The translations under genes were made by a program, and so were the position numbers. The notes under the pieces were generated by a model. It did not search any database and was not told the origin of the DNA. It saw only the letters and a program-made list of their open reading frames with translations. A stretch of DNA of 64,000 bases from the NCBI GenBank assembly GCA_017510335.1, contig JAFWNM010000014.1, positions 62,001 through 126,000 on the forward strand. Reading direction: 5' to 3'. This document shows, piece after piece, positions 20,802 through 41,674 of this stretch. This stretch comes from Paracoccaceae bacterium (GTDB taxonomy: Bacteria; Pseudomonadota; Alphaproteobacteria; Rhodobacterales; Rhodobacteraceae). Each line of letters opens with the position of its first letter. The stretch's first letter is position 1.

Positions 20802-21596
20802 CTACATCATTGTTTCAACTTCCGGGGCGGGCACGAAACGCCATTTGCGCAATGGCCCGGCCATGACGTTAAGGTAATATAGCTCAAAGCCATGGGGGGC
20901 GCCACAGGGGTGGTGGCCACGCGGAACAAGGGCCACGTCATGGTTCTTGACGGCCATGGTTTCATCAAGACTGCCATCATCGGTATAGACCCGCTGCAGC
21001 GCCCAGCCATTGGCGGGGTTCAGGCGGTGATAGTAGGTTTCTTCCAGATAGGTGATGCGCGGAAAATCATCTTCATCATGGCGGTGGCTGGGATAGCTGG
21101 ACCAGTTGCCCGCAGGGGTGAACACTTCGGTCACCAGCAGGCTGTCGCAATACTCCTCATTCTCCATGGCGATGTTGTTGATCCAACGGGTATTGGACCC
21201 TTCGCCGCGCTGTGTCAGGGCAATACCCTCCGGCCCGATGCGCCGCGCCGCATGCCCGCCCACGCCCGGCGCGGAACAGACCGCGATGGTGCAATCGGTT
21301 TGCGCCACAGCCCGCCATTCATGGCCATTGGGGACATACAGGCAATGGGGCGGGGTTTTTTCAAACACATCCATGCGGTCGCCAAGGGTGCCCCAGTCCT
21401 GCCCGGCTGCGCTGAAGGCGGCCTTGCCCTCGACCATGACCAAAATAACCTCGCGCGCGGCGGTTGCCTCGGCCACCTCCTCTCCTGCGCGCAGGCGGTG
21501 CAGGGCGAAACCCACATAGCGCCAGCCCGCCGATTGCGGCGTGATGTCATGCACCTTGCCATGGGTGCCGAAGGGTTTGCGCAGCAGATGGGACAT
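20802..21596 (-). CDS. iolB: 5-deoxy-glucuronate isomerase IolB
   Basis: Isomerises 5-deoxy-D-glucuronate to 5-dehydro-2-deoxy-D-gluconate in inositol breakdown. The 264-residue cupin-type protein begins MSHLLRKPFGTHGKVHDITPQSAGWRYVGFALHRL and has NWSSYPSHRHDEDDFPRITYLEETYYHRLNPANGWALQRVYTDD with metal-binding His and Glu. Family length and motifs match well. A 109-base gap to iolE contains an inverted repeat. Confidence 0.95.
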   Translation of the reverse strand: MSHLLRKPFGTHGKVHDITPQSAGWRYVGFALHRLRAGEEVAEATAAREVILVMVEGKAAFSAAGQDWGTLGDRMDVFEKTPPHCLYVPNGHEWRAVAQTDCTIAVCSAPGVGGHAARRIGPEGIALTQRGEGSNTRWINNIAMENEEYCDSLLVTEVFTPAGNWSSYPSHRHDEDDFPRITYLEETYYHRLNPANGWALQRVYTDDGSLDETMAVKNHDVALVPRGHHPCGAPHGFELYYLNVMAGPLRKWRFVPAPEVETMM

Positions 21597-22618: not shown

Positions 22619-24475
22619 TCAATTGCTCAGCCGCGCGCGGGCGGCGTTGGTGATGTAGCTTGCATATGCATCGCGCAGCCTCTCTGGCCCGCCGGTTTGC
22701 GGCACCGCAACGTCCCACCAATGGCCTGCGCCCTCCAACCCGTCACCGGGGCCTTGCGCAGCGGTGGTTTCAATCACGATAACGGTGGGAATATCGCGGG
22801 CGCGCGCCGCCTTGATTTCGGCCTGCAGCGCGGCCAAATCACCCGCTTTCACTGCATAAGCCCCCATGCTGGCGGCATGGGCCACATAATCAATCCGGGG
22901 CTGTTCCTCAATCGTGCAATCGGCATACAGGTTGTTGAAAGGCACGCCCCCGGTGCCCTGTTGCAGCCGGTTGATACAGCCATAGCCACGATTGTCTGTC
23001 AGGATCACAGTAAACCGAATGCGCCGCATCACGGCTGTGGCCAGTTCGGAATTGGCCATCATATAGCTGCCATCACCCACAAAACACAGCACCTCGCGCG
23101 CGGGCTGGGCCAGCTTCAGCCCCATCGCGCCCGCAATCTCATAGCCCATGCAGGAGAAGCCATACTCCATATGATACCCGCCCGCGCTGGGTTGCCACAG
23201 CAGTTTCAGCGCGCCGGGCATTGTCCCCGCAGCACACAGCGCCACGCTGGCATCAGTTGCTACCGCCTGCACCGCGCCGATAACATGCGCATCACTGGGC
23301 AAGGCGCCTGTCGCCACGGGGGCCTGACATTTTGCCTCTACGGCGGCCAGCCACGCAGCACGCGCCGCTATGTCGGGACTGGCGCGATAGCTGCCCAGTT
23401 TTTCAGACACGGCGGCCAGCGCCACTTGCGCATCCGCCACCAGACTGACAGCGCCATGTTTGGCGGCGTCATAGCCATGGGTGTTGATGGAAACCAGCCG
23501 CGCATCCGGCCCAAACAACGCCCGCGACCCGGTGGTGAAATCCTGCAACCGCGTGCCAACCCCGATGACCAGATCAGCCGCAGACAGCGCCGCATTGGCC
23601 GCCGCTGACCCGTCCACCCCTGCCGCGCCGAAATTCATCGGGTGCGCCTGCGCCAGTGCGGATTTGCCCGCCTGTGTTTCGGTAACGGGTATCTGGTGGC
23701 GGGTCGCAAAAGCCTCCAGCGCGGCCTCGGCCCCTGAATAGATGACCCCGCCCCCGCAGATGATCACAGGGCGCGCGGCGCGCGCGACCATTCCCGCAAC
23801 CTCCTCCAACTCGCGCGCATCAGGCGCGGGGCGGCGGATATGCCAAACACGGGGGCTAAAAAACGCCTCTGGCCAGTCGAACGCCTCGGCCTGCACATCC
23901 TGACAAAAACTCAGGCACACAGGCCCGCAATTGGCGGGGTCCGTCATCACCCGCAGCGCGCGTGGCAGGGCACTCAGCAATTGTTCAGGCCGCGTAATCC
24001 GGTCGAAATACCGCACCACAGGGCGGAAACAGTCATTGGCTGAAACTGTGCCATCGTCAAAATCCTCGACCTGTTGCAATACGGGGTCGGGGCGACGGTT
24101 GGCAAACACATCCCCTGCAATAACCAGCAGCGGCAGCCGGTTCACATGCGCCAGCGCCGCCGCCGTCACCAGATTGGTCGCCCCCGGCCCGATGCTCGAT
24201 GTCACCGCCATCGCCTGACGCCGCGCCCGCCCCTTGGCAAAAGCAAGGGCAGCATGGGCCATGGTCTGCTCATTCTGCCCCCGCCATGTCGGAAAGGGCG
24301 TCTCGCACAGGTCGCCATATTGCGCGCTGTGCAGCGCCTCGCCCAGCCCCGCAACATTGCCATGCCCGAAAATCGCCCAGATGCCCGGAATAAAGCGGTC
24401 GCCTTCGGCCGTCATCTGCACGCCCAACCAGCGCACCATCGCCTGTGCCGCTGTCAATCTGACTGTCCCGCTCAT
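22619..24475 (-). CDS. iolD: Cyclohexane-1,2-dione hydrolase (THcHDO hydrolase) IolD
   Basis: ThDP-dependent ring-opening enzyme of inositol breakdown, 618 residues. Start MSGTVRLTAAQAMVRWL follows GAGGAACAGC. Domains: N-terminal ThDP pyrimidine domain with IFGHGNVAGLGEAL, a central Rossmann-like domain (VIGVGTRLQDF), and the C-terminal ThDP-binding motif CFVGDGSYMMANSELATAV followed by DNRGYGCINRLQ. Motifs and length match IolD rather than other acetolactate synthase relatives. Confidence 0.95.
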   Translation of the reverse strand: MSGTVRLTAAQAMVRWLGVQMTAEGDRFIPGIWAIFGHGNVAGLGEALHSAQYGDLCETPFPTWRGQNEQTMAHAALAFAKGRARRQAMAVTSSIGPGATNLVTAAALAHVNRLPLLVIAGDVFANRRPDPVLQQVEDFDDGTVSANDCFRPVVRYFDRITRPEQLLSALPRALRVMTDPANCGPVCLSFCQDVQAEAFDWPEAFFSPRVWHIRRPAPDARELEEVAGMVARAARPVIICGGGVIYSGAEAALEAFATRHQIPVTETQAGKSALAQAHPMNFGAAGVDGSAAANAALSAADLVIGVGTRLQDFTTGSRALFGPDARLVSINTHGYDAAKHGAVSLVADAQVALAAVSEKLGSYRASPDIAARAAWLAAVEAKCQAPVATGALPSDAHVIGAVQAVATDASVALCAAGTMPGALKLLWQPSAGGYHMEYGFSCMGYEIAGAMGLKLAQPAREVLCFVGDGSYMMANSELATAVMRRIRFTVILTDNRGYGCINRLQQGTGGVPFNNLYADCTIEEQPRIDYVAHAASMGAYAVKAGDLAALQAEIKAARARDIPTVIVIETTAAQGPGDGLEGAGHWWDVAVPQTGGPERLRDAYASYITNAARARLSN

Positions 24476-24523
24476 GCTGTTCCTCTTTCCAGTCTTCATC
24501 TTGCCAAAAATACTCCGGGGGGA

Positions 24524-24560: not shown

Positions 24561-26480
24561 TCAGGCCGCGTCGCGTGCCCGCATCCGCGCTATGTCCCAG
24601 ATGCTGCAAAGCCGCGCAAAGCCTGCGCGCATTTCCTCTAGGGCCTGCGCATCATCGCAAGCCCCTGCAAACCAGCGCCGCGCCACATCGCCAAAAATCG
24701 TGCGGCCTACGGCGAACCCCTTGACCAGCGGGAATTGCGCCGCAGTGGCAAAACTGGCCGCAAGCTCCTGCTCTGGCGCGTCCAGGCCCAGCACCACAAT
24801 CCCGCGTGTATAACGGTCATGCGCTTCAATCGCCGCAATCGCATTCGCCCATGCCGCCTGCGTGCGCAGCGGTTCCAGTTTCCACCAGTCAGGAAAGATG
24901 CCCTCGCGGTAGAAACGCTCAATCACCTGCGCGGTGGTCTGGTCATCCAACGCGCCCACCTTGGACGGGATCACTTCCAGCAAAAATTCCAACCCGTTGC
25001 GCCGCGCGGCGGTGAACAGCCGCTTGACCGTTGCGACCTGCCCGGCCCATAGCGCCGCGTCATCATCAGGGTGGCAAAAGCACAGAACCTTGACCACATT
25101 GCCGCGCGCCCATGCCTGCAACCCGCCGCAATCAACGCCCAAAGCCGGTTCCAGCGCCAGGGGCCGCGACCCTGGCCATTCGCAGGGTCGCCCGACCCAT
25201 AGGCCAGTGCCCGATGCCGCATGCAGCGCACGCCGCCCGATCCTGTCATCGCACAAAATGCCATAGCCCGCGCGCCCGTCCTGCACTGCAAGCGCGGCCT
25301 GCAGGCACAGTTCCTTGAACGCGCCCCCGCGCGCCGGGGTGTAGCCTGTCATCTCCTCTAACTGCATACGGTGGTCAAAGGCGAAGATGCGGTAATCATC
25401 AAGGTCCGGCCCATGATTGCGCGCGCGGTTGGTGGACCAATGGATCTGTTCCAGCGCGGCATCATTGCGCAGATCGGGCCGCACCACGCCGCGTTCCAGA
25501 AAGAACTCCAGTTCCGCCAGGGACGGATAGGCCGGTGTGCAGCCATGGCGCGACACGGCAAAGGCCCCGCAGGCATTGGCGTATTTCAATGCCATCGGCC
25601 AGTCCGCGCCGTCCAGCCAGCCCTTTATCAGGCCGGAAAAGAACCCGTCCCCCGCGCCCAAGACATTGAACACCTCAATCGGGAAGCCCGGCCCACGCTG
25701 GCCGTCATCAAGGCTGTCGGGGATCACCCCTTCAAAGGCCACAGCGCCGGCAGCGCCGCGTTTGCACACCAGCACAGCGTCTGACACTGCGCGCACTGCC
25801 CGCAAAGCCGCAATCGTGTCGGTGGTCCCGCCCGCGATGTGGAATTCTTCTTCCGTTCCCACAATCAGGTCAAAGAAATGCAGATGCGATTGCAGCTTGG
25901 CGGTGACGTCCGCCGATTCCACAAAGCGGCTTTCGCCATCGCCATGCCCGGCCACCCCCCACAGGTTCGGGCGGTAGTCGATGTCCAGCGCGGTCTTGAC
26001 CCCGTGCTGCCGCGCCAGCCGCAGCGCTTTCAGCACCGCCGCTTCGGTGCGCGGGTGGGACAGATGCGTGCCTGTAGGCAGCAACGCGCGGGCGGATGCA
26101 ATGAACCCCTCATCAATATCGTCTTCGCATAACGCCATATCCGCGCAATTCTCGCGGTAGAAAATCAGCGGGAACTGGTCTTCATCACGAATGCCCAGCA
26201 GCACCAGCGCCGTTAGTCGTTGCGCATCGGTGACCACGCCATCGGTGCAGACGCCTTCGCGCGCCAGTTGCTCAAGGATGAAGCGCCCCATATGCTCATC
26301 ACCCACGCGCGTAATCACGGCAGACCGCAACCCCAGCCGCGCCGTGCCGCACGCAATATTCGTGGGGCTGCCCCCGATATATTTGGCAAACGATCCCATA
26401 TCTTCCAACCGTCCGCCAACCTGCGCGCCATACAGATCAACCGAAGACCGGCCTATGGTGATAAGGTCAAGCTGATGCAT
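24561..26480 (-). CDS. iolC: IolC-IolJ fusion: 5-dehydro-2-deoxygluconokinase with DUF2090 aldolase-like domain
   Basis: Protein of 639 residues. Residues 1 to about 330 are a PfkB-type kinase ([51 protein letters not shown] with catalytic Asp). From about 335 a DUF2090 domain follows ([43 protein letters not shown]), thought to act as the 5-dehydro-2-deoxy-6-phosphogluconate aldolase. So one polypeptide covers two consecutive inositol steps. It overlaps the broken Gfo/Idh gene by 14 bases. The fusion is a known arrangement in proteobacteria. Confidence 0.93.
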
Positions 26481-27584
26481 GGTTCATATCCTCCAGTCGG
26501 ATCGGGCACCCGTTTGACCGGGCCATGGCGTGGATGACCTGTTCGATCCTTAGCCCTTGGGCAAAATCGGGGCCGCAGGGCGGGCCGCCATCAATTGCGC
26601 GGATCAGGTCGCGCGCCTCGATCACTTTTTGTTCGTTAAAGCCGAAATTATGCCCCGGCGCGGGGCAGAAAGCCGCAAAATCAGGCTGGGCCGGGCCGGT
26701 CAGATGGCGGGTGAAACCGGCATCCCCGGCACGGTGAACCCAAAGTTCATTCATGTTTTCCTGATCGAAAACAAGTGTTCCGCCGCTGCCCTGCACTTCC
26801 CAGTGCAACCGACATTTGCGGCCCCGCGCCACGCGGCTGGTGGCAAACGACCCTTGCGCGCCACTGGCAAAGCGGATCAGGGCCAGCGCACTGTCCTCAT
26901 TTTCAACCTGGCGGGGGCGGCCATCGGGCGCGGGGCGCTGGGGCACGGCAATCTGGGTCATGGCCGTCACCTCGGACACGTCACCCATAAGGGCCACCAT
27001 CACACTGACCAGATGGCACCCCAAATCGCCAAGCGCACCCAGCCCGCCGCCTTCATGCGTCATGCGCCATGACCATGGCAGGGCGGGATCAGCGCAATAA
27101 TCTTCGTCATAGACCCCGCGAAAGGCCAGCGGCGTGCCGATTTCGCCCGCCTGCACCATCGCGCATGCAGCCTGAAACGCCGGCGCGCGCAGGTAGTTAT
27201 AGCCCAAAAGCGTGACCTGTCCGGGATGGGCCTTGGCCAGATGCGCCATGGCCTGCGCGTCTTCCAGCGTCAGGGCCATTGGCTTTTCCAGCCAGACATG
27301 CTTGCCCGCGCGCAGGGCCGCATCTGCCATGGGGCGGTGCAACCCGTTAGGGGTGGTGATGACACCACATCAATGGCCGGGTCCAGAATTGCGGCTTGCC
27401 AGTCGACCATGGCGCGCGCAAACCCGAATTGTGCGGCACATGCATCGGACTGCGCCTGGGTGGCGTCGCACAGGATTTCCAGACGTGGATGGGCCACGCC
27501 AAAAACGGGCGCGACCGACCGCCATGCCAGCGCGTGGCATTTGCCCATAAACCCTGTGCCAATCAGCGCCACACCTAATGACAT
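26467..27584 (-). pseudogene. Gfo/Idh/MocA oxidoreductase interrupted by a one-base frameshift
   Basis: The N-terminal frame MSLGVALIGTGFMGKCHALAW...AIDVVSS runs from 27584 to about 27360, then loses homology. The rest of the protein, beginning at [23 protein letters not shown], continues in another frame to 26467. Adding one base near 27360-27362 restores ...[16 protein letters not shown], the normal Gfo/Idh junction, giving about 373 residues. The start overlaps the iolG stop by one base. It is probably an inositol-type dehydrogenase (second IolG, IolX/W or MocA-like). It is either a real recent mutation or a sequencing error. Confidence 0.85.
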
Positions 27585-28594
27585 CACGCGGCCTTTTGTT
27601 TTGCGCTGGCCAGCTGCACCGCCTGCCCGCTTTGTGCGGATTCCAACGCGGCATCGGCCAGTTCAAGCGCGCGCAACCCGTCCAGCGCCGTGGTGGGCAT
27701 GGGCGTTCCATCACGCAGCGCCGCGACAAAGCCCGCGATTTCTGCAGCATAGGCAGCGATGTAGCGTGTCATGAAAAAATCCAGCAAAGGGGCGTCATGG
27801 AAGCCCTGCGCATCGGCAAACTGGATATTCGCCCTGTGCTGGTTCTTGGCGCTGATCATGCCCGCTGCGCCCAGCACTTCAACGCGCTGGTCATAGCCAT
27901 AGGTGGCGCGGCGCGAATTGGTGATGATGGCCTGTTTACCGCTTGGCGTGCGCAATATCACGTTCACGCTGTCATAATCGCCCAATTCGCCAATCGTGGG
28001 GTCTGTCAGAACAGAAGCCTGCGCCATCACGGTTTCAACCTCCTCGCCCAGCAGCCAGCGGGCCATGTCGAAATCATGGATTGTCATGTCCCTGAAAATA
28101 CCGCCCGACCGGGTGATATAGTCAGCAGGGGGCGCGCCGGGGTCGCGGCTGATGATGGTGACCATCTCGACCTTGCCGATGCGGCCTGCGTCAATTGCGG
28201 CCTTCATCGCGGCGAAATCGGGGTCAAACCGGCGGTTGAAGCCCAGCATCACGCGGCCGCCGGTTTCGTCAACCACGCGCAAACAGTCGCGCACGCGGCC
28301 TGAATCCAGATCGACGGGCTTTTCGCAAAACACGGCCTTGCCCGCGCGGCAGAACCGCTCAATCAGGTCGGCATGGGTGTCGGTGGGCGTGCAGATGACG
28401 ACGGCATCAACATCATCTGACGATTCAATGGTGTCTATGGTGCGGATATCGCAGCCATATTTCGCGGCCACACTGTCAGCGGCCGCGGCAATAGGGTCTG
28501 CGATGGCGACAAGCGCGGCCCCTTCCACCTGCGCAATCGCGCGGGCATGGACCTGACCAATACGGCCTGCACCAAGAACGGCAAAACGTGTCAT
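27584..28594 (-). CDS. iolG: Inositol 2-dehydrogenase IolG
   Basis: NAD-dependent oxidation of myo-inositol to 2-keto-myo-inositol. The 336-residue protein starts MTRFAVLGAGRIGQVHARAIA after AAGGAACAATC. It has CTPTDTHADLIERFCRAGKAVFCEKPVDLD with the catalytic Lys, MLGFNRRFDP, and IHDFDMARWLLGEEVE with the conserved Asp and His. These match IolG closely. It is followed by the frameshifted relative and preceded by the inositol importer. Confidence 0.94.
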   Translation of the reverse strand: MTRFAVLGAGRIGQVHARAIAQVEGAALVAIADPIAAAADSVAAKYGCDIRTIDTIESSDDVDAVVICTPTDTHADLIERFCRAGKAVFCEKPVDLDSGRVRDCLRVVDETGGRVMLGFNRRFDPDFAAMKAAIDAGRIGKVEMVTIISRDPGAPPADYITRSGGIFRDMTIHDFDMARWLLGEEVETVMAQASVLTDPTIGELGDYDSVNVILRTPSGKQAIITNSRRATYGYDQRVEVLGAAGMISAKNQHRANIQFADAQGFHDAPLLDFFMTRYIAAYAAEIAGFVAALRDGTPMPTTALDGLRALELADAALESAQSGQAVQLASAKQKAA

Positions 28595-28649
28595 GATTGT
28601 TCCTTTTGAAAAGACGCAGATGGCGCCCTGTTTGGCAGGTATCCTGAAT

Positions 28650-29429
28650 TCACAAGACACCTTCTGTCATGTATTCAGGCTGTGTCCTGGCGCCGGTGAT
28701 ATAGGCCACGACCTGTTCCCCCGTCACCTCACGCGTAAGAAGGTTCGCGCAAATGCGCCCGCGCCGGAACACCACGATACGGTCACACAAATCCATCACC
28801 TGCCGCATGTTATGGCTGATCAGGATCAGGGGTTCGCCCTGGTCCTTCAGCGTGCGGATGATGTTTTCCACCTGCGCGGTTTCCTGCACGCCCAGCGCCG
28901 CAGTCGGTTCGTCCATAATCGTAAGCTTGGAATGAAAGGTTGCGGTGCGCGCGATTGCCACACATTGGCGCTGCCCGCCCGACATATACTGGATTGTGTT
29001 GCGGATGGACGGGATTTTTACACCTGTTTTTTCCAATGCGGCCAGCGTATCGGCATGCATGGCCTTGTAATCCAGGCGCCGGAACGGGCCAAGCCAGTTC
29101 CATTTTGTCTTTTCGCGCCCCAGAAACAAATTGTCGGGCACGTCCAGATGGTCCGCCAGCGCCAAAGTCTGGAAAACAGCTTCTATCCCGGCTTCGCGCG
29201 CGTCCAGCGGGCCTGCAAAATCCACCCTGGCGCCGTTAAAATGTATTTCGCCGCGGGTGGGGCGTTCTACCCCTGTGATCTGGCGCACGAATGTCGATTT
29301 GCCCGCGCCATTGTCACCCATGATGGCCACATGCTCGCCTTTGCGGAGGGTGAAATTGGCGTCCTCCAATGCGTGCACACCGCCATAATGCTTGGTCAGA
29401 CCGCGCGTTTCGAGTGTATACTCGCTCAT
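28650..29429 (-). CDS. Inositol-type sugar ABC transporter ATP-binding protein (single domain)
   Basis: ATPase of 259 residues, starting MSEYTLETRGLTKHYGGVHAL after AAGGGGACGAAG. Walker A GDNGAGKST, signature MSGGQRQCVAIARTA and Walker B LTIMDEPTAALG. It has only one nucleotide-binding domain, as in FrcA-like transporters, rather than the tandem form of RbsA/XylG. It lies between permease and iolG in the operon. Confidence 0.91.
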   Translation of the reverse strand: MSEYTLETRGLTKHYGGVHALEDANFTLRKGEHVAIMGDNGAGKSTFVRQITGVERPTRGEIHFNGARVDFAGPLDAREAGIEAVFQTLALADHLDVPDNLFLGREKTKWNWLGPFRRLDYKAMHADTLAALEKTGVKIPSIRNTIQYMSGGQRQCVAIARTATFHSKLTIMDEPTAALGVQETAQVENIIRTLKDQGEPLILISHNMRQVMDLCDRIVVFRRGRICANLLTREVTGEQVVAYITGARTQPEYMTEGVL

Positions 29430-29439
29430 CTTCGTCCCC

Positions 29440-30525
29440 TTACATGCGATGGGCCGCGCGGCGCTGGCGCCACTGGTCCAGAACGACAGCGCCCACAATA
29501 ATCGCGCCCTTGGCCATTTCCTGATAATAGGCATCCAGCCGCAAATAGGTGAAACCGGAAATGATGACCCCGAAAATCAACGCGCCCAGACAGGTGCCGA
29601 CAATCGATCCGCGCCCGCCCTGCAGCGAAATGCCCCCGATCACGGCCATGGCAATGGCGTCCAGTTCATACATCACGCCCATACCGGCCTGAGCAGTCAG
29701 GTTCTTGGAGCTCAGGACAACCGCAGCGATTGCCGCAAGCCCGCCCGCGATGGTGTAAACCAGTGTCAGGTGGCGCTGGACATTGATGCCCGACATGCGC
29801 GCCGCATCAATATTGGAACCGATGGCATAGGTATGCTTGCCATATACTGTGTGGCGCATGACCAGATAGAACAACACTGCAAGCGCAAGGAAAATGTAGA
29901 CGGGCATCATACCGGAACCGATGGCGGCATAGCTTTCCGTCGGGAAGGAAACAGGCTGCCCCTTGGTCCACCATTTTGCCACGCCCCGCGCAGCGACCAT
30001 CATGCCCAGCGTCGCAATGAAAGGCGGGATGCGCGTGTAGGCAACCAGCAATCCGTTCACCAGCCCCGCAAGCAAACCGCAGGCCAGACCCACCATCACC
30101 GGGATAAGAACCGGAAGATCCACCCAGCCATGTTCAAAAAACACGGCACGGGTAAAGGGGTTTCCGTTCACCTCGCTGACCTGTGCGAAACTCATTGCAA
30201 TCATCGCCGTTGCGCCGACAATCGACCCTGAAGACAAATCAATCCCGCCCGTGATGATCACCTGTGTGACCCCCAGTGCGATGATACCAATGATTGCGAC
30301 CTGCAAGATGATGATCTGCAAGCGCGCTTCGTTGAAAATGGACGAAAACCGCCCTTGGGTGTCGAACAGAAAGCTTTGCCCGTTCATATACGGCAGCGTT
30401 TGGCCCAAAACCTCGAACACTCCGATAATCAGGATAAGCGCCAGAAAGACATTCAGTTCCGGGGGCCGACTTCGTTTTCGGTGGTCATACTTCAACCCTC
30501 CGACGCCCACTGTTGCCTCTGCCAT
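29440..30525 (-). CDS. Inositol-type sugar ABC transporter permease (RbsC/FrcC family)
   Basis: Inner-membrane protein of 361 residues with 8-10 hydrophobic helices. Family marks are GVTQVIITGGIDLSSGSIVGATAM, IPPFIATLGMMVAARG, AIGSNIDAARMSGINV and LTAQAGMGVMYELDAIAMAVIGGISLQGGRGSIVG. The start is placed at MAEATVG after GGAGGGAAC. It pairs with the ATPase 10 bases downstream. Confidence 0.92.
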   Translation of the reverse strand: MAEATVGVGGLKYDHRKRSRPPELNVFLALILIIGVFEVLGQTLPYMNGQSFLFDTQGRFSSIFNEARLQIIILQVAIIGIIALGVTQVIITGGIDLSSGSIVGATAMIAMSFAQVSEVNGNPFTRAVFFEHGWVDLPVLIPVMVGLACGLLAGLVNGLLVAYTRIPPFIATLGMMVAARGVAKWWTKGQPVSFPTESYAAIGSGMMPVYIFLALAVLFYLVMRHTVYGKHTYAIGSNIDAARMSGINVQRHLTLVYTIAGGLAAIAAVVLSSKNLTAQAGMGVMYELDAIAMAVIGGISLQGGRGSIVGTCLGALIFGVIISGFTYLRLDAYYQEMAKGAIIVGAVVLDQWRQRRAAHRM

Positions 30526-30619
30526 GCCAGGTTCCCTCCTCATCCATCGCGCTTGGTCTTAAATGCGGGGCGGTGCGACACCACCGCCCCTTCGTCGGCC
30601 AGTCCGATCTTGTTTTCGA

Positions 30620-31567
30620 TCAGTTGGCGCTCAGGTAGTCGGCCACATTCTGCGGCGTGACCAGTTCGAACGGAATATACACCTTGGACGCAACAGGATT
30701 GCCCGCCGCCAGATCAAGCGCAGCCTGAAGTGCGCCAGACCCCTGCCCCGCAGCATTCTGGAACACCGTCACATCCAGATCACCAGATTGCATCGCAGCC
30801 AGCGCATCCTGGGTGGCATCAACCCCTGTGACAATGACATCATCCATGGAAATGCCTGCCGCTTTCATGGCCTGAATCGCCCCGATGGCCATTTCATCGT
30901 TATTTGACAGCACAGCGTCGAACGGTTCGCCCGAAGACAGCCAGTTTGTCATCATGTCCTGTGCCTGATCGCGCGACCAGTTGGCCGTCTGGCGGTCAAC
31001 AACATTCATGAAATTGCACATATCGATCCCAAGAATATCGTCGAAATCCTTGGTGCGTTGCACCGCCGCCTGGTTCGACAACTCGCCCATCAGAATATAG
31101 ATATTCGCGCCTTCGCCCTTGCCTTCGGCGCGCAGCAATTTGCATGCTTCAAAAGCCGCCAAGGTGCCGGATTCAATTTCATTCGACGCCACGAAAGCCT
31201 GATTGTCCGGCAGGGTGTCCACGTTGACAGGCTGGCGGTTGACATAGACCAGCGGCACGCCACCACTTGCGGCTGCATTGCTCATGGCTTCGGTCGCGGC
31301 AGTGTCAACCGGGTTCACGATGATCGCATCCACGCCCGAAGCTACAAAATTGTTGATCTGGTCAAGTTGCCGCGCCACGTCGTTTTGTGCATCTTCTACC
31401 TGAAGCGTGACGCCGTCCATCTCTGCGGCCATATCGATCATGCCATTGCGCAAGACGGTCAGGAAGTTGTCGTCAAACAGGGCCATCGACACACCGATAT
31501 TCTGCGCATTGGCCAGTGACGCCATAAGTGCAGTGGCCGCCGTAGCAGCAAGCAGGGTTTTCTTCAT
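30620..31567 (-). CDS. Inositol-type periplasmic binding protein (IbpA-like)
   Basis: Type I periplasmic binding protein of 315 residues with signal peptide MKKTLLAATAATALMASLANAQ. It contains VDAIIVNPVDTAATEAM, PLVYVNRQPVN, FDAVLSNNDEMAIGAIQAMKAAG and VTGVDATQDALAAMQSGDLDVTVFQNA, the pentose/inositol family pattern. Gene order with iolG and the single-domain ATPase supports inositol as substrate; an O-methyl inositol is also possible. Confidence 0.91.
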   Translation of the reverse strand: MKKTLLAATAATALMASLANAQNIGVSMALFDDNFLTVLRNGMIDMAAEMDGVTLQVEDAQNDVARQLDQINNFVASGVDAIIVNPVDTAATEAMSNAAASGGVPLVYVNRQPVNVDTLPDNQAFVASNEIESGTLAAFEACKLLRAEGKGEGANIYILMGELSNQAAVQRTKDFDDILGIDMCNFMNVVDRQTANWSRDQAQDMMTNWLSSGEPFDAVLSNNDEMAIGAIQAMKAAGISMDDVIVTGVDATQDALAAMQSGDLDVTVFQNAAGQGSGALQAALDLAAGNPVASKVYIPFELVTPQNVADYLSAN

Positions 31568-31631: not shown

Positions 31632-32456
31632 TCAGGCGGCCTTGGCCTGCAATTGGGCGGAAATGAAATCGAACGATTGGCGCAGCGCCGTCAAAGGGTC
31701 GGCCAGCGCCTGTGTTTCTGGCGAGAAACACTCATAACTGAAGGCACCTTTGTATCCTGCGGCCAGCAGTGCCGCCATCTGGTCGATATTGCCCAAACGG
31801 TCGCGGCTGTCGATCAGGACGCGGTGTTCATCTTCCATCTGTTCGATGGCCAGCAAAGGGTCCACCACAGCCGATATATGCACGATGCCAGTTTGCGCGG
31901 CATAAAGCGCCCCCCCTCCGGCCAGGGTATGGTGGAATGTGTCATGCACAATGCGCAACCGCGCGCCCATATCCAGCGCGGCGATCATCTCGGCCAGTTC
32001 GTGCTTGGACCGCAGTGATGAGCGCCCGAAGCCCAGCGGCTCGACCAGGGCGACCATATCTGCGGCCACCAGCATCGGATAACACGCCTTCAGCGCCACA
32101 CGCAGATTGGCCTGACGTTCGCCCTCGGCGCCGCCGGTCCCGTCATTGCGCGGGATCAGGCTGATGGTTTCCGCACCCGCGCGCTTGGCAGTGTCAATCA
32201 GCGCGGCCACTTCGGCCTGGCGCGTGTCATCCCAACTATTGAACGGATACACTTGGCTTAGCCCAAGAAACCGCAACCCGCGGGCGCGCACCATCTCACC
32301 GGCTTGCGCGGGGTCCAGTCCGTCAAACAACGGGCGGCCCAAATCCGCCATGTCGTTGCGCAATTCCACGCCCATGCACCCCAGGTCGCGCGCCAGATCC
32401 AGAAAAGATGCAAAAGGCAGATGCGGGGCAGTCATCTGGTTCAGCGCGAACTGCAT
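31632..32456 (-). CDS. TIM-barrel sugar isomerase/epimerase (IolI/MocC-like)
   Basis: Protein of 274 residues of the AP-endonuclease-like isomerase family. Visible: FALNQMTAPHLPFASFLDLARDLGCMGVELRND, LVEPLGFGRSSLRSKHE, RIVHDTFHHTLAGG and GAFSYECFSPE, with Glu/His/Asp positions expected to bind a divalent metal. Family members isomerise inososes (IolI) or act in rhizopine breakdown (MocC). It is the first gene of the minus-strand inositol operon. Confidence 0.82.
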   Translation of the reverse strand: MQFALNQMTAPHLPFASFLDLARDLGCMGVELRNDMADLGRPLFDGLDPAQAGEMVRARGLRFLGLSQVYPFNSWDDTRQAEVAALIDTAKRAGAETISLIPRNDGTGGAEGERQANLRVALKACYPMLVAADMVALVEPLGFGRSSLRSKHELAEMIAALDMGARLRIVHDTFHHTLAGGGALYAAQTGIVHISAVVDPLLAIEQMEDEHRVLIDSRDRLGNIDQMAALLAAGYKGAFSYECFSPETQALADPLTALRQSFDFISAQLQAKAA

Positions 32457-32546: not shown

Positions 32547-32590
32547 AATGACGTTTTTCTGCGCAAGCAAAATGATGTTTTTACGTCATT
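32547..32590. promoter_or_regulatory. Candidate LacI-type operator ahead of the inositol operon
   Basis: AATGATGT (32571-32578) and ACGTCATT (32583-32590) form an inverted repeat with one mismatch and a four-base TTTT spacer, ending inside the last codons of the lacI gene. A further AATGACGT half-site lies at 32547-32554. The sites are about 90-130 bases upstream of the isomerase start, in the only sizeable gap before the operon. Binding by the adjacent LacI protein is inferred. Confidence 0.45.
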
Positions 32591-33612
32591 TCCGGCAAAA
32601 TGATGCGTGGATCCAGGAAATGCTGGCCAGTGATCCCGTCATCACCGCCCCGCACCGCACGCACCATCAATTCCACCATATCGGTGCACAGTTCCGGCAA
32701 AGGCGTGCAGATCACCATTGTGACATAGCCATCCGCAAGCGCAGCGCGGCTGTCAGCGGTCAGTTCGTTCACCACCAGCGCCACACGGGGGCTTGCATGC
32801 ACTTCGCGCAATGCGGCAATCGCGCCTTCCATGCCACCGCCTGCGCAATAGATGCCGGTCAGGTCGGGATGGCGGCGCACCAGATCAAGCGTGGCTTCAT
32901 AGGTCAGCTGGCGCGTTTCCAGATTGACCAGCGTTTCCAGCACCGAAAACTCGGGCGCGTTTTCGCGCACATAGGACCGGAACCCCACTTCGCGCAAATC
33001 ATGCCCATGCCACCGGTTGCCGCCCACAAATACCGCCAGCTTTCCGGGGCGCTTCACGCGGCCTGTGATCATCCAGGCGGCAATCCGGCCTATCTTCATG
33101 TTGTTCAGGCCAAGATAATTGCGCCGCACCCCTTGGGCAAAATCGTTCAGCAGGGAAAACACCGGCACGCCTTCGGCCTGCATGTCCTGCACAGCCTGCG
33201 TCAGCCGCTGGTGGTTGACCGCAACCCCCGCCACCGCGTCGCATTTCGAGCCCAAAGCGCGAAGTTCCTGCGCAAAGGCATCTGGCGACTGGGAGGACGT
33301 GTAGCGGATGATCACGCGCCCCCGAATGTCGGGTCTGGCCGCCACGGCCTGTTCGATTTCACGCGCGAAATTCTGGTAGAATTCCTGCGATTTCTTGATC
33401 AGTACGATGCCTAAGGTAAGTTCGGGTTTTGCCGCATCCAGATTTTGCGCCAACACCCCCCGCGCATGATAGCCCACGCGATGCGCCGCATCAGCGATCT
33501 TGCGCAACGTGTCCTCTCGCACCTTCATCCGCCCGTTCAGGGCGCGGTCAACAGTCGTCACGCTGACACCAGCGGCGCGCGCCACGTCCTGAACTGTCGG
33601 CCGCTTCGTCAT
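32581..33612 (-). CDS. LacI-family regulator of inositol genes
   Basis: Regulator of 343 residues. N-terminal HTH and hinge: MTKRPTVQDVARAAGVSVTTVDRALNGRMKV. The effector domain is of the periplasmic-binding type (LTLGIVLIKKSQEFYQNF, GGNRWHGHDLREVGF, GIYCAGGGMEGAIAALREV). The start MTKRPTV was chosen over a GTG/ATG four codons upstream because LacI proteins begin at the HTH. It lies directly upstream of the inositol operon and shares long blocks with the second LacI gene at 37246. Confidence 0.92.
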   Translation of the reverse strand: MTKRPTVQDVARAAGVSVTTVDRALNGRMKVREDTLRKIADAAHRVGYHARGVLAQNLDAAKPELTLGIVLIKKSQEFYQNFAREIEQAVAARPDIRGRVIIRYTSSQSPDAFAQELRALGSKCDAVAGVAVNHQRLTQAVQDMQAEGVPVFSLLNDFAQGVRRNYLGLNNMKIGRIAAWMITGRVKRPGKLAVFVGGNRWHGHDLREVGFRSYVRENAPEFSVLETLVNLETRQLTYEATLDLVRRHPDLTGIYCAGGGMEGAIAALREVHASPRVALVVNELTADSRAALADGYVTMVICTPLPELCTDMVELMVRAVRGGDDGITGQHFLDPRIILPEMT

Positions 33613-33664
33613 GGGGCACCCCATCCGTATGACGCATTTACATCATTGTGGCAGTCACGGGCCA

Positions 33665-34480
33665 CTATGACAAGCGTGCGCTTGCATCCAACCCCTGAAG
33701 AAACCCGTCAAGTTCCTCATCCGTGATGGGCACAGTATGCGCCGCCGCCGGATAGGCCCCTTGCGCGACATCATTCCTGAATGCCGCAAATGCGCTGACC
33801 CGCATCTGGTGCAGACGTTCGTGTTCAGACGCGAAGTCAGCATAGGTCTTGGCGTGGCGGGGTTTGTGCCCACGGGTGCAACCCAGAACATCCTCGGAAA
33901 ACAGGTATTGTGCATCAGCCCCCGCGCCCGCGCCCATCCCCAGCAAAACCAGGGAACTGCGGCGGGATAGTTCTGCCGCCACGCGGTCGGGCACGACTTC
34001 CAGTTCCGCGCCGAACGCGCCCGCATCCTGCAAGGCCTGCACATCGCGCCACAACTGCAATGCGGTCTGGGCCGTCTTGCCAACAGCCCTGAAGCCGCCG
34101 GTCCATGTGGCCTTGGACGGAATCAGGCCGACATGCCCGACCACAGGAATACCATCATCGGCCAATGCCCTGATCGTGCCCAGCGATGACGCGCAGTAAA
34201 CGCAATCGCCGCCCATCTGCATAGCGGCATGGGCGGCGCGCTGGTAATCTTCTTGCGTGACAAGCTGGCCATAAAGCAACCCTACCTGCACAAAACAATT
34301 TCCGGCGGCAGCGCGCATTTGCGGCGTCCAGCGGGGTGCAATGATCGACAGCATGTCGATTCCCGCCTGCGCGGCAGCGGCAGCTTCCTCGGGCGTTTCG
34401 ACATACAGCATTGTCAGCGTGCGTTTGCCCTTCAGGGCGCGAATATCAGCCACAGTGGGCCGAGAGGTTTTTTGCGTCAT
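33665..34480 (-). CDS. Divergent PanB-fold protein (ketopantoate hydroxymethyltransferase homologue), active site altered
   Basis: The 271-residue protein follows the PanB fold: VGHVGLIPS (113-121, with His116), GAFGAELEVVP (Glu161), GMGAGAGADAQYLFSEDVLGCTRGHKPRHAKTYADF (181-216). Against the E. coli PanB residues as I recall them, the metal ligands and partners are gone: the VGDS segment (Asp45) reads LSIIAPR, the DLPF segment (Asp84) reads QVGLLYG, and the KIEGG segment (Lys112, Glu114) reads VYCASS. So it is unlikely to be an ordinary pantothenate enzyme. It is 18 bases after the MocF-like gene in the oxygenase operon, with no panC nearby, which points to a C1 or aldol-type role linked to that oxygenase. 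Confidence 0.75.
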   Translation of the reverse strand: MTQKTSRPTVADIRALKGKRTLTMLYVETPEEAAAAAQAGIDMLSIIAPRWTPQMRAAAGNCFVQVGLLYGQLVTQEDYQRAAHAAMQMGGDCVYCASSLGTIRALADDGIPVVGHVGLIPSKATWTGGFRAVGKTAQTALQLWRDVQALQDAGAFGAELEVVPDRVAAELSRRSSLVLLGMGAGAGADAQYLFSEDVLGCTRGHKPRHAKTYADFASEHERLHQMRVSAFAAFRNDVAQGAYPAAAHTVPITDEELDGFLQGLDASARLS

Positions 34481-34498
34481 CGCAATATCCTTCTTAAC

Positions 34499-35707
34499 TC
34501 AGGCGGCCTTGGCGCGGCGCAACAGTGCTTTTAGCGGCTGCGCCCGATCACGCAGACAATCAGGGGCGGGCGCCAAACCGGCCTGGATCAGGCGTTCTGC
34601 CACAGCTATTTCCCTGGCACTGCTGCGCCCCGCCCCTAGCCCCGCGGCCCCGGTCAAGCGGCCATCCGCGCCCAGCCAGAACAGGATTTCACAATCTTCT
34701 GAAACGATGCGCGACGCGGCCGGCGCGCCTGCAACATTGCCCACAACCTGCAGGCCCAGATCATACTGATCCGACCAGAACCACGGCAGGGCGTCGAAAC
34801 ACACCGCGTCGCCTGCAAGTGTCCGCCCCGCAAGCATGCCTTGATCACGGGCGTTGCGCCACGTCTCGAAGCGGTGGACACGGCCATCCGGCTGGCGAAG
34901 GGCCGCACAATCCCCAGCGGCGAAAATATTGCCATCCGAACTGCGCAACTGACCATCAACACAAACGCCATTTTCACATTCAAGGCCCGCCCCCTGCGCC
35001 AAGGCTGTTTCAGGCACCACCCCGATGGCCGCAATCACCATGTCACAGGGCAGAATTCCCCCATCATTCAGGTGAACATGGTCCTTGGAAATTGCGTCAA
35101 TGGTGCAATTGAAACGGAAGGAAACCCCCTGGGCACGGTGGCGGGCCACAAGCCGACCGGCCAGCGCTTCGGGAACCGCGCGGCCAAGCGCACGCGCACC
35201 CGTTTCCAGCACCGTGACACGGGCGGCCAAGGCCCGCAAACTGGCCGCCAGTTCCAACCCGATTAGACCCGCCCCGATAATGACGACATGCCGGTTGGCC
35301 AATGGCTGGCTGAATATGGCATCTGCATCATCATGGCTGCGCAGGACCAGCGCATGTTCCGCCCCCACACAACTTAGGCGGCGTGGCGCGGCCCCCGTGG
35401 CCAGAAGCAGGCGCGTATAGCCAATGCCAGTGCCGTCTGACAGCGTGACAGATTGCGCCAAAGGGTCTATGGCCATCGCGCTGATGCCGTCTTGGTAGTC
35501 GATCCCTGACGCGCGCAAGTCGCTTTCAGAACAGATCGCACGGCGCATGACTGCGCCCGCATCCGGTTTCGACAAAGGGGGGCGTTCGTATGGCAAGCCG
35601 TATTCCTGACCAATCAACGTGATTGGTCCGTCAAACCCCGCATCCCGTGCTGATAACGCCGCGCGCGTGCCACATTCCCCCGCGCCGACAATAACAATGC
35701 CTGCCAT
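34499..35707 (-). CDS. FAD-dependent ferredoxin reductase (MocF-like)
   Basis: NAD(P)H:ferredoxin reductase of 402 residues. N-terminal FAD motif GIVIVGAGECGTRAALSARDAG, PYERPPLSK typical of oxygenase-coupled reductases, the NAD motif HVVIIGAGLIGLELAASLRALA and IFAAGDCAAL near the C-terminal side, ending with a reductase C-terminal domain (FWSDQYDLGLQVVG). It follows the Rieske ferredoxin gene by three bases. It would pass electrons to that ferredoxin for the membrane oxygenase. Confidence 0.87.
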   Translation of the reverse strand: MAGIVIVGAGECGTRAALSARDAGFDGPITLIGQEYGLPYERPPLSKPDAGAVMRRAICSESDLRASGIDYQDGISAMAIDPLAQSVTLSDGTGIGYTRLLLATGAAPRRLSCVGAEHALVLRSHDDADAIFSQPLANRHVVIIGAGLIGLELAASLRALAARVTVLETGARALGRAVPEALAGRLVARHRAQGVSFRFNCTIDAISKDHVHLNDGGILPCDMVIAAIGVVPETALAQGAGLECENGVCVDGQLRSSDGNIFAAGDCAALRQPDGRVHRFETWRNARDQGMLAGRTLAGDAVCFDALPWFWSDQYDLGLQVVGNVAGAPAASRIVSEDCEILFWLGADGRLTGAAGLGAGRSSAREIAVAERLIQAGLAPAPDCLRDRAQPLKALLRRAKAA

Positions 35708-35710
35708 CAC

Positions 35711-36019
35711 TCAGACCTCGATCAGGACGCGCCCGCCTTCGGTTTTTACGCGATAGATGTTCAGGTTCACGCAAGCCGGTGCGCGCCTGGCTTCGCCAGT
35801 GCGATAGTCGAAAGTTGCATTATGCTTCGGGCATTCAATTTCATATTCCATCACCAGCCCGTCAGCCAGATGCACCTGTTCATGCGTGCAAAGCCCGTCT
35901 GTGCAGTAGAATTCATCATCCGGGCTGCGATAAATCGCAAAGGTGCGTCCGTCATGGTCAAACCGGATCAGGTCTTCGCTGTCGATATCGTCAGTTGCGC
36001 AGGCGTCAATCCAAGGCAT
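35711..36019 (-). CDS. Rieske-type [2Fe-2S] ferredoxin (MocE-like)
   Basis: Small electron carrier of 102 residues. The Rieske ligands are clear: Cys44-Thr-His46 and Cys63-Pro-Lys-His66 (CTHEQVHL and ECPKHNATFDY). It resembles the soluble Rieske ferredoxins of oxygenase systems and MocE of rhizopine catabolism. It sits between the desaturase-type oxygenase and the reductase, spaced 24 and 3 bases. Confidence 0.9.
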   Translation of the reverse strand: MPWIDACATDDIDSEDLIRFDHDGRTFAIYRSPDDEFYCTDGLCTHEQVHLADGLVMEYEIECPKHNATFDYRTGEARRAPACVNLNIYRVKTEGGRVLIEV

Positions 36020-36043
36020 TGCTCTCTCCTTCGGGAACAGGTG

Positions 36044-37123
36044 TCATTCTGCCGCCGTGCCAAGCGCGGCATGGTGCAAATCCTCGCGATAGGGTTTTGC
36101 CGTCACAGGCAGATCGCGCTTCAGAAAGAAATCTTCGTTCTTCAACTGTCTGCGCAAGGCAGGCCACATTTCTGCAAATGCCTGCGCGATAGAACGGTTG
36201 GGTGCAGGCAGGTCATGCTTGATGGCCTGATGCAGTTCCGGCAGGCGGTGATACGGCACCATCGGGAACATGTGGTGTTCGACATGATAATTCATGTTCC
36301 AATAGATGAAGCGGCTGACGGGGTTCATATAGACGGTGCGCGAATTCAGCCGATGGTCAATCACGTTGTCGGCCAGCCCGCCATGCTGCAACAGGCCCGT
36401 CATGACGTGATGCCATGCGCCATACAGACGCGGCAGACCGATGACCATCAACGGCAGGATGGACCCCGCCACCACGGCCAGCGCTATAACGCCACCGTAG
36501 ATCAACACCCAGATACGCGCCACGCGAATGACCTTGTGCTGTTCAGCTTCGGGAATGTAGCTGGCTTCTTCAGGGTGAAGCTTGCCCGTGGCGTTATACA
36601 ACATCCGCACCCAACCATTCCATGCATCGACCACCCCGAAGAAATTGGCGATCAGGCGCGCAAATTCGGGCGGGCGCATGATGGCAATTTCAGGGTCGCG
36701 CCCGACGATAATGGTGTCGGTATGGTGGCGCGCGTGGCTCCAGCGCCAGGTGTGCGGATTGCGCACCATGCAAAAGCTTGCGATCTGGTAGATTACGTCA
36801 TTCATCCAGCGCGTCTTGAACGCTGTGCCGTGGCTGCATTCATGCCAGCGGGAGTCCATGGCCGACCCATACAGCACGCCATAGGCCAGCCAGACCGGAA
36901 GCGACCACAGCGACGGCCAAAGCGCAACGCCTGTGCCCGCAAGCGCCACCATCGCCCCGAACAGGATGATCGTATCACGAATTGCTGGCCCGTCGTCGCG
37001 CCGCATCAGGTCTTTCATCTGATTGCGGGGTATGTCGGTATGATACCACTGCGCCGCCAAAAGCCCCGTTTCAATCGCGCGCGTCGCATCTGGCCCCAAC
37101 ATGGAATAATCTCTGCGTGGCAT
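36044..37123 (-). CDS. Membrane di-iron oxygenase of the fatty acid desaturase superfamily (MocD-like)
   Basis: Protein of 359 residues with hydrophobic helices around 50-90 and 205-232. The three histidine boxes are HECSH (94-98), HARHH (130-134) and HVEHH (280-284), with an additional WHH at 237-239, the set that binds the di-iron centre. Start MPRRDYS follows GGAGGGGCCT. Together with the Rieske ferredoxin and reductase it matches the MocD-E-F set, which O-demethylates 3-O-methyl-scyllo-inosamine. The inositol genes next door support a demethylase role over lipid desaturation, which remains the alternative. Confidence 0.85.
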   Translation of the reverse strand: MPRRDYSMLGPDATRAIETGLLAAQWYHTDIPRNQMKDLMRRDDGPAIRDTIILFGAMVALAGTGVALWPSLWSLPVWLAYGVLYGSAMDSRWHECSHGTAFKTRWMNDVIYQIASFCMVRNPHTWRWSHARHHTDTIIVGRDPEIAIMRPPEFARLIANFFGVVDAWNGWVRMLYNATGKLHPEEASYIPEAEQHKVIRVARIWVLIYGGVIALAVVAGSILPLMVIGLPRLYGAWHHVMTGLLQHGGLADNVIDHRLNSRTVYMNPVSRFIYWNMNYHVEHHMFPMVPYHRLPELHQAIKHDLPAPNRSIAQAFAEMWPALRRQLKNEDFFLKRDLPVTAKPYREDLHHAALGTAAE

Positions 37124-37196: not shown

Positions 37197-37245
37197 ACCC
37201 CTCAAAAACCCTCAAGATGACCTGATGGGATGAGGGGTATCCATC

Positions 37246-38271
37246 ATGACACGCAAGCCGACACTGGCAGATCTGGCGCAGGCCGCCGGGGTAAGCCTGG
37301 CAACAATCGACCGCGCCATTCACGCGCGCGGCAAGGTTTCGGCACGCAGCCTTGCGCGTATCCAAGAAGCGGCATCCCGGATCGGTTTTTTTGAACCACA
37401 GTTCCAAACCGCGCCGCCCCCACGCATAGCGCTTCGGCTGGGGTTCGTGCTGCACAAGGGCAGTCAGGAATTTTACCGCAATCTGACCCGCGCGCTGGAA
37501 CGGGCCTGCCATGCGCGCAGCGATTTCGACATTCTTGCGGAATTCCGCTATGCGACATCGCAGGCGCCAGATGATTTCTGTGTGGAATTGGGCGCGGCCA
37601 GTGACACTTGCGCCGCGCTGGCGTCGTCTGCCGTAACGCATGCAAAGGTGGCGCAGGCCAGCGCGCGACTGGTGCACAACGGCCTGCCGGTTTTTGCGGT
37701 GCTCAACGATTTCGGGCGGGATGCACATATGGGGTATTTCGGACTGGACAACCTGCGCGTTGGCCGCATGGCCGGCTGGATGATGGCACAGCGTTTGCAA
37801 CAGGGGGGGCGTGTGGCGGTATTTGTCGGCGGCAACCGCTGGCATGGCCACGCCCTGCGCGAAACCGGGTTTCGCAGCGCGTTGCGGGAATATGCACCAC
37901 ATGTCACTGTGCTGGACACATTGGTAAATCTGGAAACACGGCAAGTCACCTATGAGGCGACACTTAACCTGCTTGATACACATTCCGATCTGCGCGGCAT
38001 TTACGTCGCCGGGGGCGGCATGGAAGGCGCGATTGCCGCACTTCGCGAAATGCGCCCCCCCGACAAGGTCGCATTGATCCTGAACGAACTGACGGTGGAC
38101 AGTCGCGCGGCGCTGACAGACCGGTATGCCATGATGGCCATGGCCACCCCGATAGACGCGCTGGCCGCTTCGCTGGTTGACGCCATGGTGCACGCCACAC
38201 AAAACCCGGCAACAGCACCCCGGCGCGCGGTGGTGTTTGACCCCCAGATATGGCTGCCGGAATCGTTCTGA
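37246..38271 (+). CDS. Second LacI-family regulator, divergent from the MocDEF-like operon
   Basis: Regulator of 341 residues beginning MTRKPTLADLAQAAGVSLATIDRAIHARGKV. Its effector domain shares long near-identical blocks with the LacI protein at 32581, e.g. GSQEFYRNL, FVGGNRWHGHALRETGFRS, TLVNLETRQVTYEATLNL and GIYVAGGGMEGAIAALRE. It is divergently placed 122 bases from the oxygenase gene, so it likely regulates that operon. The pair looks like a duplication with split targets and related inducers. Confidence 0.91.
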   Translation: MTRKPTLADLAQAAGVSLATIDRAIHARGKVSARSLARIQEAASRIGFFEPQFQTAPPPRIALRLGFVLHKGSQEFYRNLTRALERACHARSDFDILAEFRYATSQAPDDFCVELGAASDTCAALASSAVTHAKVAQASARLVHNGLPVFAVLNDFGRDAHMGYFGLDNLRVGRMAGWMMAQRLQQGGRVAVFVGGNRWHGHALRETGFRSALREYAPHVTVLDTLVNLETRQVTYEATLNLLDTHSDLRGIYVAGGGMEGAIAALREMRPPDKVALILNELTVDSRAALTDRYAMMAMATPIDALAASLVDAMVHATQNPATAPRRAVVFDPQIWLPESF

Positions 38272-40543: not shown

Positions 40544-40566
40544 ATCCCCCAACAGATGGAGCGAAC

Positions 40567-41673: not shown

Positions 41674-41674
41674 T

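Follow-up and report, generated by a model that had tools for sequence, protein, structure and literature searches.

A 64,000-nucleotide stretch of a Paracoccaceae bacterium (assembly GCA_017510335.1, contig JAFWNM010000014.1, positions 62,001 to 126,000; the whole stretch is called the window here, and lies on contig C8 of a genome of 3.61 Mb) encodes a MocD-like membrane oxygenase and its electron-transfer partners alongside a sugar/inositol importer and inositol-degrading enzymes. The genes belong to the families described below, keep their order in relatives, share a palindrome there, and include one for a PanB-like protein that has lost residues of the PanB metal site. We think it probable, if well short of assured, that they form one LacI-controlled regulon for the use of an O-methylated inositol (pinitol, ononitol, or another cyclitol methyl ether). 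Taken together, the importer, the oxygenase chain, the folate genes, the iol enzymes, and the one palindrome found in relatives are best fitted by O-demethylation of a methylated inositol.

The oxygenase set and the adjoining inositol genes

Read along the minus strand, on which every gene given below lies unless noted otherwise, the locus runs from the oxygenase through the MocE-family ferredoxin, the FAD reductase, the PanB-like gene, a LacI gene, a TIM-barrel gene, and the binding protein, permease, and ATPase of an importer to iolG, a frameshifted second dehydrogenase, iolC/J, iolD, iolE, iolB, and purU. The His-box membrane di-iron oxygenase (36044..37123) scored 128 bits against PF00487 (cut-off 29.7), and the MocE-family Rieske 2Fe-2S ferredoxin (35711..36019) scored 170.7 bits against TIGR02377 (cut-off 136.15). 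The FAD-dependent, MocF-like ferredoxin reductase (34499..35710) matched PF07992 and PF14759 (212.7 and 54.8 bits); its best NCBIfam match, to HcaD, reached 318.4 bits, below the cut-off of 450. The three genes are adjacent on one strand, which is the MocDEF-type layout.

The His boxes of the oxygenase are H94-ECS-H98, H130-H133-H134, and H280-H283-H284, with His residues invariant across a 30-row alignment. Among the matches listed, its nearest named relatives were from Roseinatronobacter sp. HJB301 (91%) and a Natronohydrobacter metagenome bin (89%). Identity is about 70% to the rhizobial homologues that stood in for the MocD of strain L5-30 and belong to the kind named mocD in papers (PMC3538637, PMC5789663). 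In a 63-row tree, which contained neither a named lipid desaturase nor L5-30 MocD, it fell in a Rhodobacterales group beside rhizobial homologues, with three other desaturase-like proteins far off. Its structure model was moderate (pLDDT 76.3), and we give little weight to its best fold matches, a chain of the Ycf2-FtsHi motor complex (E 8e-4) and AlkB (E 0.15). Three other genomes of the host genus in our sample of the order had no oxygenase match; the locus is therefore accessory.

Beyond the LacI-family, FixV-like regulator (32581..33624; PF00356/PF13407) lies the gene for a PF01261 TIM-barrel protein resembling Msi119 (31632..32456; 71.3 bits), a possible inosose isomerase whose closest structures are 2q02 and 4hgx, no function being stated for either. 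Next comes an ATP-binding cassette (ABC) importer of the CUT2 sugar type, consisting of a sugar/inositol substrate-binding protein (30620..31567; PF13407, 176.8 bits), a permease (29440..30543; PF02653, 142.2 bits), and an ATPase of uncertain start (28650..29534; PF00005, 102.2 bits). The closest solved relative of the binding protein is 4yo7 (201.3 bits), which we take to be a complex with myo-inositol. Each Iol protein scored above its curated cut-off: the inositol 2-dehydrogenase IolG (27584..28660, true start probably about 28590; TIGR04380, 412.2 against 355), the bifunctional kinase/aldolase IolC/J (24561..26480; NF047869, 685.5 against 600), IolD (22619..24499; TIGR04377, 831.2 against 715), IolE (21706..22608; TIGR04379, 345.9 against 290), and IolB (20802..21596; TIGR04378, 334.4 against 205). 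The purU gene, encoding formyltetrahydrofolate deformylase (19895..20779; TIGR00655, 331.7 against 285.95), follows iolB by 22 bases. All of the parts named in a first-pass annotation of this DNA (oxygenase, Rieske ferredoxin, FAD reductase, iolB/D/E/G/C/J, importer, and TIM-barrel gene) were thus recovered on the minus strand by family matches, while the PanB-like gene and purU had been overlooked in that inventory.

Several further genes complete the picture. A second LacI-family regulator (37246..38271, plus strand; PF13407, 88.5 bits; PF00356, 31.3 bits) is divergent from the oxygenase. The second Gfo/Idh/MocA dehydrogenase (26467..27584) matched a levoglucosan dehydrogenase model with 201 bits, limited to profile positions 85-377; a frameshift near 27360, which could be an assembly error or decay, places its N-terminal Rossmann part in another frame, and a relative with 74% identity occurs in locus L046. 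At 39575-45609, a 5-formyltetrahydrofolate cyclo-ligase-like gene stands by a Bmp-type binding protein, a permease, and an ABC ATPase, which probably form an importer of their own, for nucleosides or thiamine. The cyclo-ligase-like gene (39575) was considered for the one-carbon (C1) route and dropped, being grouped with this other ABC system and found in none of the counted locus sets.

Conserved neighbourhood and a shared palindrome

A scan of named genomes with a five-row alignment yielded at least 559 confirmed oxygenase relatives, the best 80 of which (68-91% identity) were kept; some of these 80 loci end early at contig ends. The ferredoxin gene was downstream of the oxygenase on the same strand in 76 loci, and a LacI gene was adjacent and divergent in 73. 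The PanB-like gene was present in 60 of the 80, the TIM-barrel gene in 58, the importer in 46, iolG in 31 (any of iolG, iolC/J, iolD, iolE, or iolB in 35), and purU in 9. Where at least 7 kb was available on both sides, 24 of 48 loci held iolG, iolC/J, or iolD; in 20 control segments, each about 20 kb long and taken from the same genomes with the thresholds unchanged, none of these genes was found, the sole match being a dehydrogenase resembling the window's second one, in 2 segments. Around more distant oxygenases (46-62% identity, 18 loci) the ferredoxin was found in 9, the PanB-like gene in 6, and iolG, iolC/J, or iolD in 1; the inositol link therefore belongs to the close clade.

Two variations on this neighbourhood were observed. 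In nine loci (L043, L047, L052, L108, L111, L114, L116, L118, and L126) a second, divergent iol-like set lies close to the oxygenase, with IolB-like and IolC-like proteins about 30% identical, a class II aldolase, and, in several, IolE-like, Gfo/Idh, and LacI genes; it is possibly a route for a different cyclitol. The gamma- and beta-type loci (L248-L254) retained both ferredoxin and reductase in 7 of 7 cases, followed by a different gene, perhaps the published 'xylA2' that comes after mocDEF in Pseudomonas syringae (PMC5132102). Two copies of this extra gene from gamma-type loci were tested; one gave a weak PF01261 match (23.8 bits, cut-off 31.1) and the other no family, so that neither fits a formaldehyde dehydrogenase replacing the PanB-like protein.

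The pattern TGATGTAATTACATCA was derived from palindromic 16-mers upstream of the oxygenase; matches were counted at up to three mismatches, and promoters were taken to reach from 20 bases inside to 350 bases upstream of a gene start. In 107 loci (27 plus 80, partly the same contigs) we counted 46 matches, 40 of them in promoters of oxygenase, TIM-barrel, or LacI genes; control stretches had 1 match in 0.40 Mb. The 80 named loci (1.42 Mb) accounted for 31 distinct matches in 27 loci, 26 of the 31 in the same three kinds of promoter; up to 60 shuffled palindromes averaged 1.05 matches and never gave more than 13. Seventeen sites in related loci lay within 7 bases of a LacI stop codon, the TIM-barrel start coming next in 15. 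The oxygenase in relatives thus shares an operator-like palindrome with the TIM-barrel/importer side. The window has the same FixV-regulon layout of a LacI gene, a palindrome at its stop codon, and then the TIM-barrel gene: one operator-like site (33630..33645) precedes the LacI regulator and another (32573..32588) lies at its stop codon, upstream of the TIM-barrel gene, each with 3 mismatches to TGATGTAATTACATCA. These two sites compare with 0.08 expected, and two were also reached by 1 of 100 shuffles; the whole genome has seven such sites versus two for the reversed pattern.

The FixV comparison may extend the palindrome to nitrogen fixation. Activation of nifA2 in Mesorhizobium loti (M. 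loti) depends on the LacI regulator FixV, which possibly responds to an inositol-derivative signal; FixV homologues adjoin mocDEF and PF01261 genes, and the authors of that work proposed that fixV and a promoter it regulates moved to nifA2 (PMC3538637). FixV is unmentioned in the main text of a survey of LacI regulons (PMC4052901). A widened form of the palindromic pattern, TGATRKAATTMYATCA, was looked for in 119 genomes from the genus of genome G915. Oxygenase loci of this genus have neighbours in common with Mesorhizobium loci L170, L174, and L178, and on that ground we read it as Mesorhizobium-like. The pattern was present in 46 of the 119 genomes, and its reverse had 0 matches. A nifA or LacI match was found in 28 of 30 fetched loci, each stretch reaching at most 1.5 kb to either side; these 30 hold 18 distinct site regions and are therefore not independent. 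Longer stretches, partly around the same sites, had nifA, a nifA fragment, or a LacI gene near the site in 20 of 20 cases. The nifA queries were taken from these loci and named by TIGR01817 (one with 552.3 bits, cut-off 528.85) and Pfam. Locus L342 combines a full LacI gene, a TIM-barrel gene, nifA, and an operator-like site within 10 kb, and in L344 the start of an operator-like site comes two bases after the LacI stop codon, an arrangement like that of the catabolic loci. The window's LacI protein (32581..33624) is 52-54% identical to those encoded near operator sites in L342, L344, and L361.

Other observations weigh against this link to nifA. Many of the nifA and LacI copies in these loci are only fragments; TGATAGAATTCTATCA, the most frequent variant, usually has nifA beside it without a LacI gene; and common ancestry of the island DNA could account for some of the pattern. 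In seven loci (L346, L347, L348, L354, L355, L359, and L360) TGATAGAATTCTATCA has a FabF-like gene on one side and a NifA open frame on the other; the listed part of that frame is without the N-terminal GAF domain.

The PanB-like protein and a proposed one-carbon role

The PanB-like protein (33665..34480; PF02548, 132.1 bits) scored 95.7 and 118.2 bits against PanB models, below their cut-offs of 207.55 and 272; a true PanB is encoded elsewhere in the genome, on another contig (310.9 bits). The best fold matches of its AF2 model (pLDDT 91.7) are PanB structures, 3vav and 1m3u among them. By the E. coli PanB numbering, the His136 and Glu181 columns were kept in 82 of 82 PanB-like rows, and the metal ligands Asp45, Asp84, and Glu114, as well as Lys112, were absent from the aligned columns in all 82, a result that depends on the alignment and on rows of which some come from overlapping contigs. 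Twenty further rows kept His136 and Glu181 in every case, with Asp in the gap-rich Asp45 column in 2 of 20 and in the Asp84 column in 0 of 20, and with the Glu114 column gapped.

PanB-like matches (E ≤1e-35) were found in 22 of 23 genomes of the order sample with a close oxygenase versus 31 of 269 without (Fisher p 1.4e-17, kinship not corrected). From a larger number of PanB-like sites without a close oxygenase alongside, 20 were read. Another membrane di-iron oxygenase gene was within about 2.5 kb in 12, ten of these PF04116 hydroxylase-like (six by Pfam, four by similarity) and two PF00487-like at 31-34% (one by Pfam). Four more (L285-L288) had the oxygenase elsewhere in the genome and the PanB-like gene grouped with ferredoxin, IolG, or PurU: in these split modules it stays with ferredoxin and PurU in L285 and with IolG in L287. 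The other four (L297, L299, L300, and L302) had no such oxygenase in these tests. A theme common to the sites is an oxygenase whose product the PanB-like protein may handle. The loci with PF04116-like membrane hydroxylases (L289, L291-L296, L298, L301, and L304) in several cases also carry 3-hydroxyisobutyrate-type dehydrogenases, alcohol dehydrogenase, or aldehyde dehydrogenase.

The PanB-like and PurU genes of the locus point to a C1 unit being set free. PanB itself works with methylene-tetrahydrofolate (PMC4814558) and was once put forward as a potential promiscuous catalyst for the reaction of formaldehyde (PMC7073904). Growth of an E. coli strain also lacking panB and ltaE was unchanged (PMC7073904), and we therefore propose a role for the PanB-like protein as a formaldehyde/tetrahydrofolate enzyme as a lead, not a result. 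Both its association with MocD-like oxygenase loci and the palindrome TGATGTAATTACATCA common to oxygenase and TIM-barrel promoters are new here: a literature search covering few subscription papers found no report of a PanB-like partner, a PanB-like C1 enzyme, a homarine/PanB-like link, or an operator of the TGATGTAATTACATCA type.

Proposed function, alternatives, and known systems

We infer the substrate, each reaction, the binding of protein to DNA, and the ligand from the gene families, as follows. The ABC importer would bring in an O-methyl inositol. Electrons would pass from NADH through the FAD reductase and the Rieske ferredoxin to the membrane di-iron oxygenase, which would hydroxylate the O-methyl group; the resulting hemiacetal would break up into free inositol and formaldehyde. 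The PanB-like protein would help to load formaldehyde onto tetrahydrofolate, FolD-type enzymes, assumed here, would oxidise the C1-tetrahydrofolate, and PurU would release formate. IolG, the second dehydrogenase, and the TIM-barrel isomerase would lead to 2-keto-myo-inositol, with IolE, IolD, IolB, and IolC/J completing the pathway. The FixV-type LacI protein would bind the TGATGTAATTACATCA-like sites before the LacI/TIM-barrel/importer operon and, in relatives, also before the oxygenase. MocDEF is known for rhizopine, a rare compound, and close oxygenase relatives occur in many bacteria not tied to nodules; a general MocDEF role on methylated inositols would explain this distribution. In Rhizobium mesoamericanum, mocDEF homologues were up 1.53-2.11 fold in a root exudate in which pinitol was the most concentrated compound measured, and the authors proposed rhizopine (PMC5789663). 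Legume nodules are rich in pinitol and ononitol (PMC8730688).

Part of the evidence weighs against a methyl-inositol regulon. The reductase was found in just 35-36 of the 80 named loci, depending on threshold, and no iolG, iolC/J, or iolD gene was within reach in 24 of the 48 with full flanks. The PanB-like gene was found in none of the seven gamma- and beta-type loci and had no match in G171, a genome with a close oxygenase, and the loci in which it stands beside PF04116 hydroxylases showed no close iol gene. The annotated Rhizobium plasmid locus L036 has the oxygenase set with no importer and no iol genes next to it. In the window itself, the oxygenase promoter holds only a degenerate copy of the palindrome (37231..37246, minus strand; 5 mismatches in an upstream-region alignment), at a position where related loci have a better one.

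The oxygenase might instead hydroxylate another cyclitol or sugar, such as laminitol or a deoxy-inositol, at its ring or at a C-methyl group, without any demethylation, the PanB-like protein acting as a lyase on the product. That protein keeps only part of the PanB site and is also found next to PF04116 hydroxylases where other dehydrogenases are present, which allows for some different product common to these loci. Against this, PurU belongs to the folate enzymes, PanB uses a folate, and ferredoxin, PanB-like, and PurU genes cluster even away from the oxygenase (L285); we regard this alternative as unlikely. A further explanation, that the CUT2 system imports an O-methyl sugar for demethylation and the iol genes merely share the neighbourhood, draws on the distant oxygenases, which mostly lack iolG, iolC/J, and iolD and whose family may therefore have several O-methyl substrates. 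It is quite improbable, given that iolG lies in the same locus in 31 of 80 cases in the close clade and that a TIM-barrel protein of symbiosis islands resembling the window's is described as a putative inosose isomerase (PMC8627217). A lipid or fatty-acid desaturase operon lying by chance beside an iol operon has PF00487 membership in its favour and is hardly credible: the oxygenase scored 25.0 bits against the DesA model and 49.4 against DesB (both cut-offs 500), the neighbourhood is conserved in the best 80 loci, and the palindrome is shared with the TIM-barrel/importer promoter. The grouping with lipid desaturases that the first-pass annotation had set against its MocDEF-like reading appeared neither in these scores nor in the tree described above, built without named lipid desaturases.

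The same annotation had offered rhizopine as a substrate, with the oxygenase demethylating 3-O-methyl-scyllo-inosamine as proposed for the MocDEF of Sinorhizobium and Rhizobium. A MocE-family ferredoxin, the same three components, and adjacent inositol genes agree with this, but we find it very improbable. The window's substrate-binding protein scored 35.0 bits against the rhizopine-binding protein MocB (NF052284), for which the cut-off is 420; the host genome has four matches to that family, the best with E 2.3e-16 and 60 bits. The scanned stretch encodes two regulators of LacI type and one of LysR type, with no MocR-type (GntR-plus-aminotransferase) regulator present among its scanned proteins. 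The annotated rhizobial loci L036 and L038 are flanked by LacI and a TIM-barrel gene, with no gene named MocB or MocR. Only 2 of 385 genomes (L099 and L100) had a rhizopine-type binding protein above the cut-off, and they carry only distant oxygenase relatives and therefore supply no true MocD; there the binding protein is near iol genes without a close MocD-like oxygenase, and these genomes are perhaps users of unmethylated scyllo-inosamine. Plasmid records examined for a true MocB gave 70.9% at best, from Roseateles sp. XES5. In Rhizobium pisi DSM 30132 a single MocE, at L175, exceeds the cut-off, and the best rhizopine-binding protein score, 321.7, is below 420. What stands of the MocDEF interpretation is a MocDEF-like set linked to inositol genes; rhizopine is disfavoured as the substrate, and O-demethylation is what the gene company suggests.

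A bolder extension of the O-methyl inositol regulon is tentative, and we hold it doubtful as a whole: FixV-type LacI proteins would be O-methyl inositol sensors, the methyl-inositol operator would have moved before nifA, and the PanB-like protein would be a dedicated formaldehyde-tetrahydrofolate enzyme. If so, nodule pinitol or ononitol would tell Mesorhizobium-like symbionts to fix nitrogen, and the same regulon would include, in the metal-less PanB-like protein, a dedicated enzyme for coupling formaldehyde with tetrahydrofolate that has so far been missing. It is the shared palindrome that links the pathway to FixV and makes the FixV signal testable.

The locus resembles the MocDEF systems of Sinorhizobium meliloti L5-30 and Rhizobium leguminosarum, whose demethylation model is reportedly that of Bahar in 1998, in combining a desaturase-like oxygenase, a MocE-family Rieske ferredoxin, and an FAD reductase in one inositol-linked operon. 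It differs in the scanned stretch by having LacI genes, a PanB-like gene, and purU instead of a rhizopine-binding protein and a MocR-type gene. With the FixV/Msi119/nifA2 region of M. loti it shares a LacI gene and a PF01261 TIM-barrel gene, homologues of which are divergent from mocDEF, as well as a suspected inositol-derivative signal; there FixV drives nifA2 (PMC3538637), whereas in the window the site precedes a catabolic operon. From PanB itself the PanB-like protein retains the fold and the His136 and Glu181 positions, but not Asp45, Asp84, Lys112, or Glu114, nor scores above the PanB cut-offs. The purU-mabO-folD operon of nicotine C1 metabolism has a different demethylating enzyme and, in the portion of its description drawn on here, no mention of a PanB-like gene, yet it likewise places PurU in a demethylation operon that hands C1 units to tetrahydrofolate (PMC3891541).

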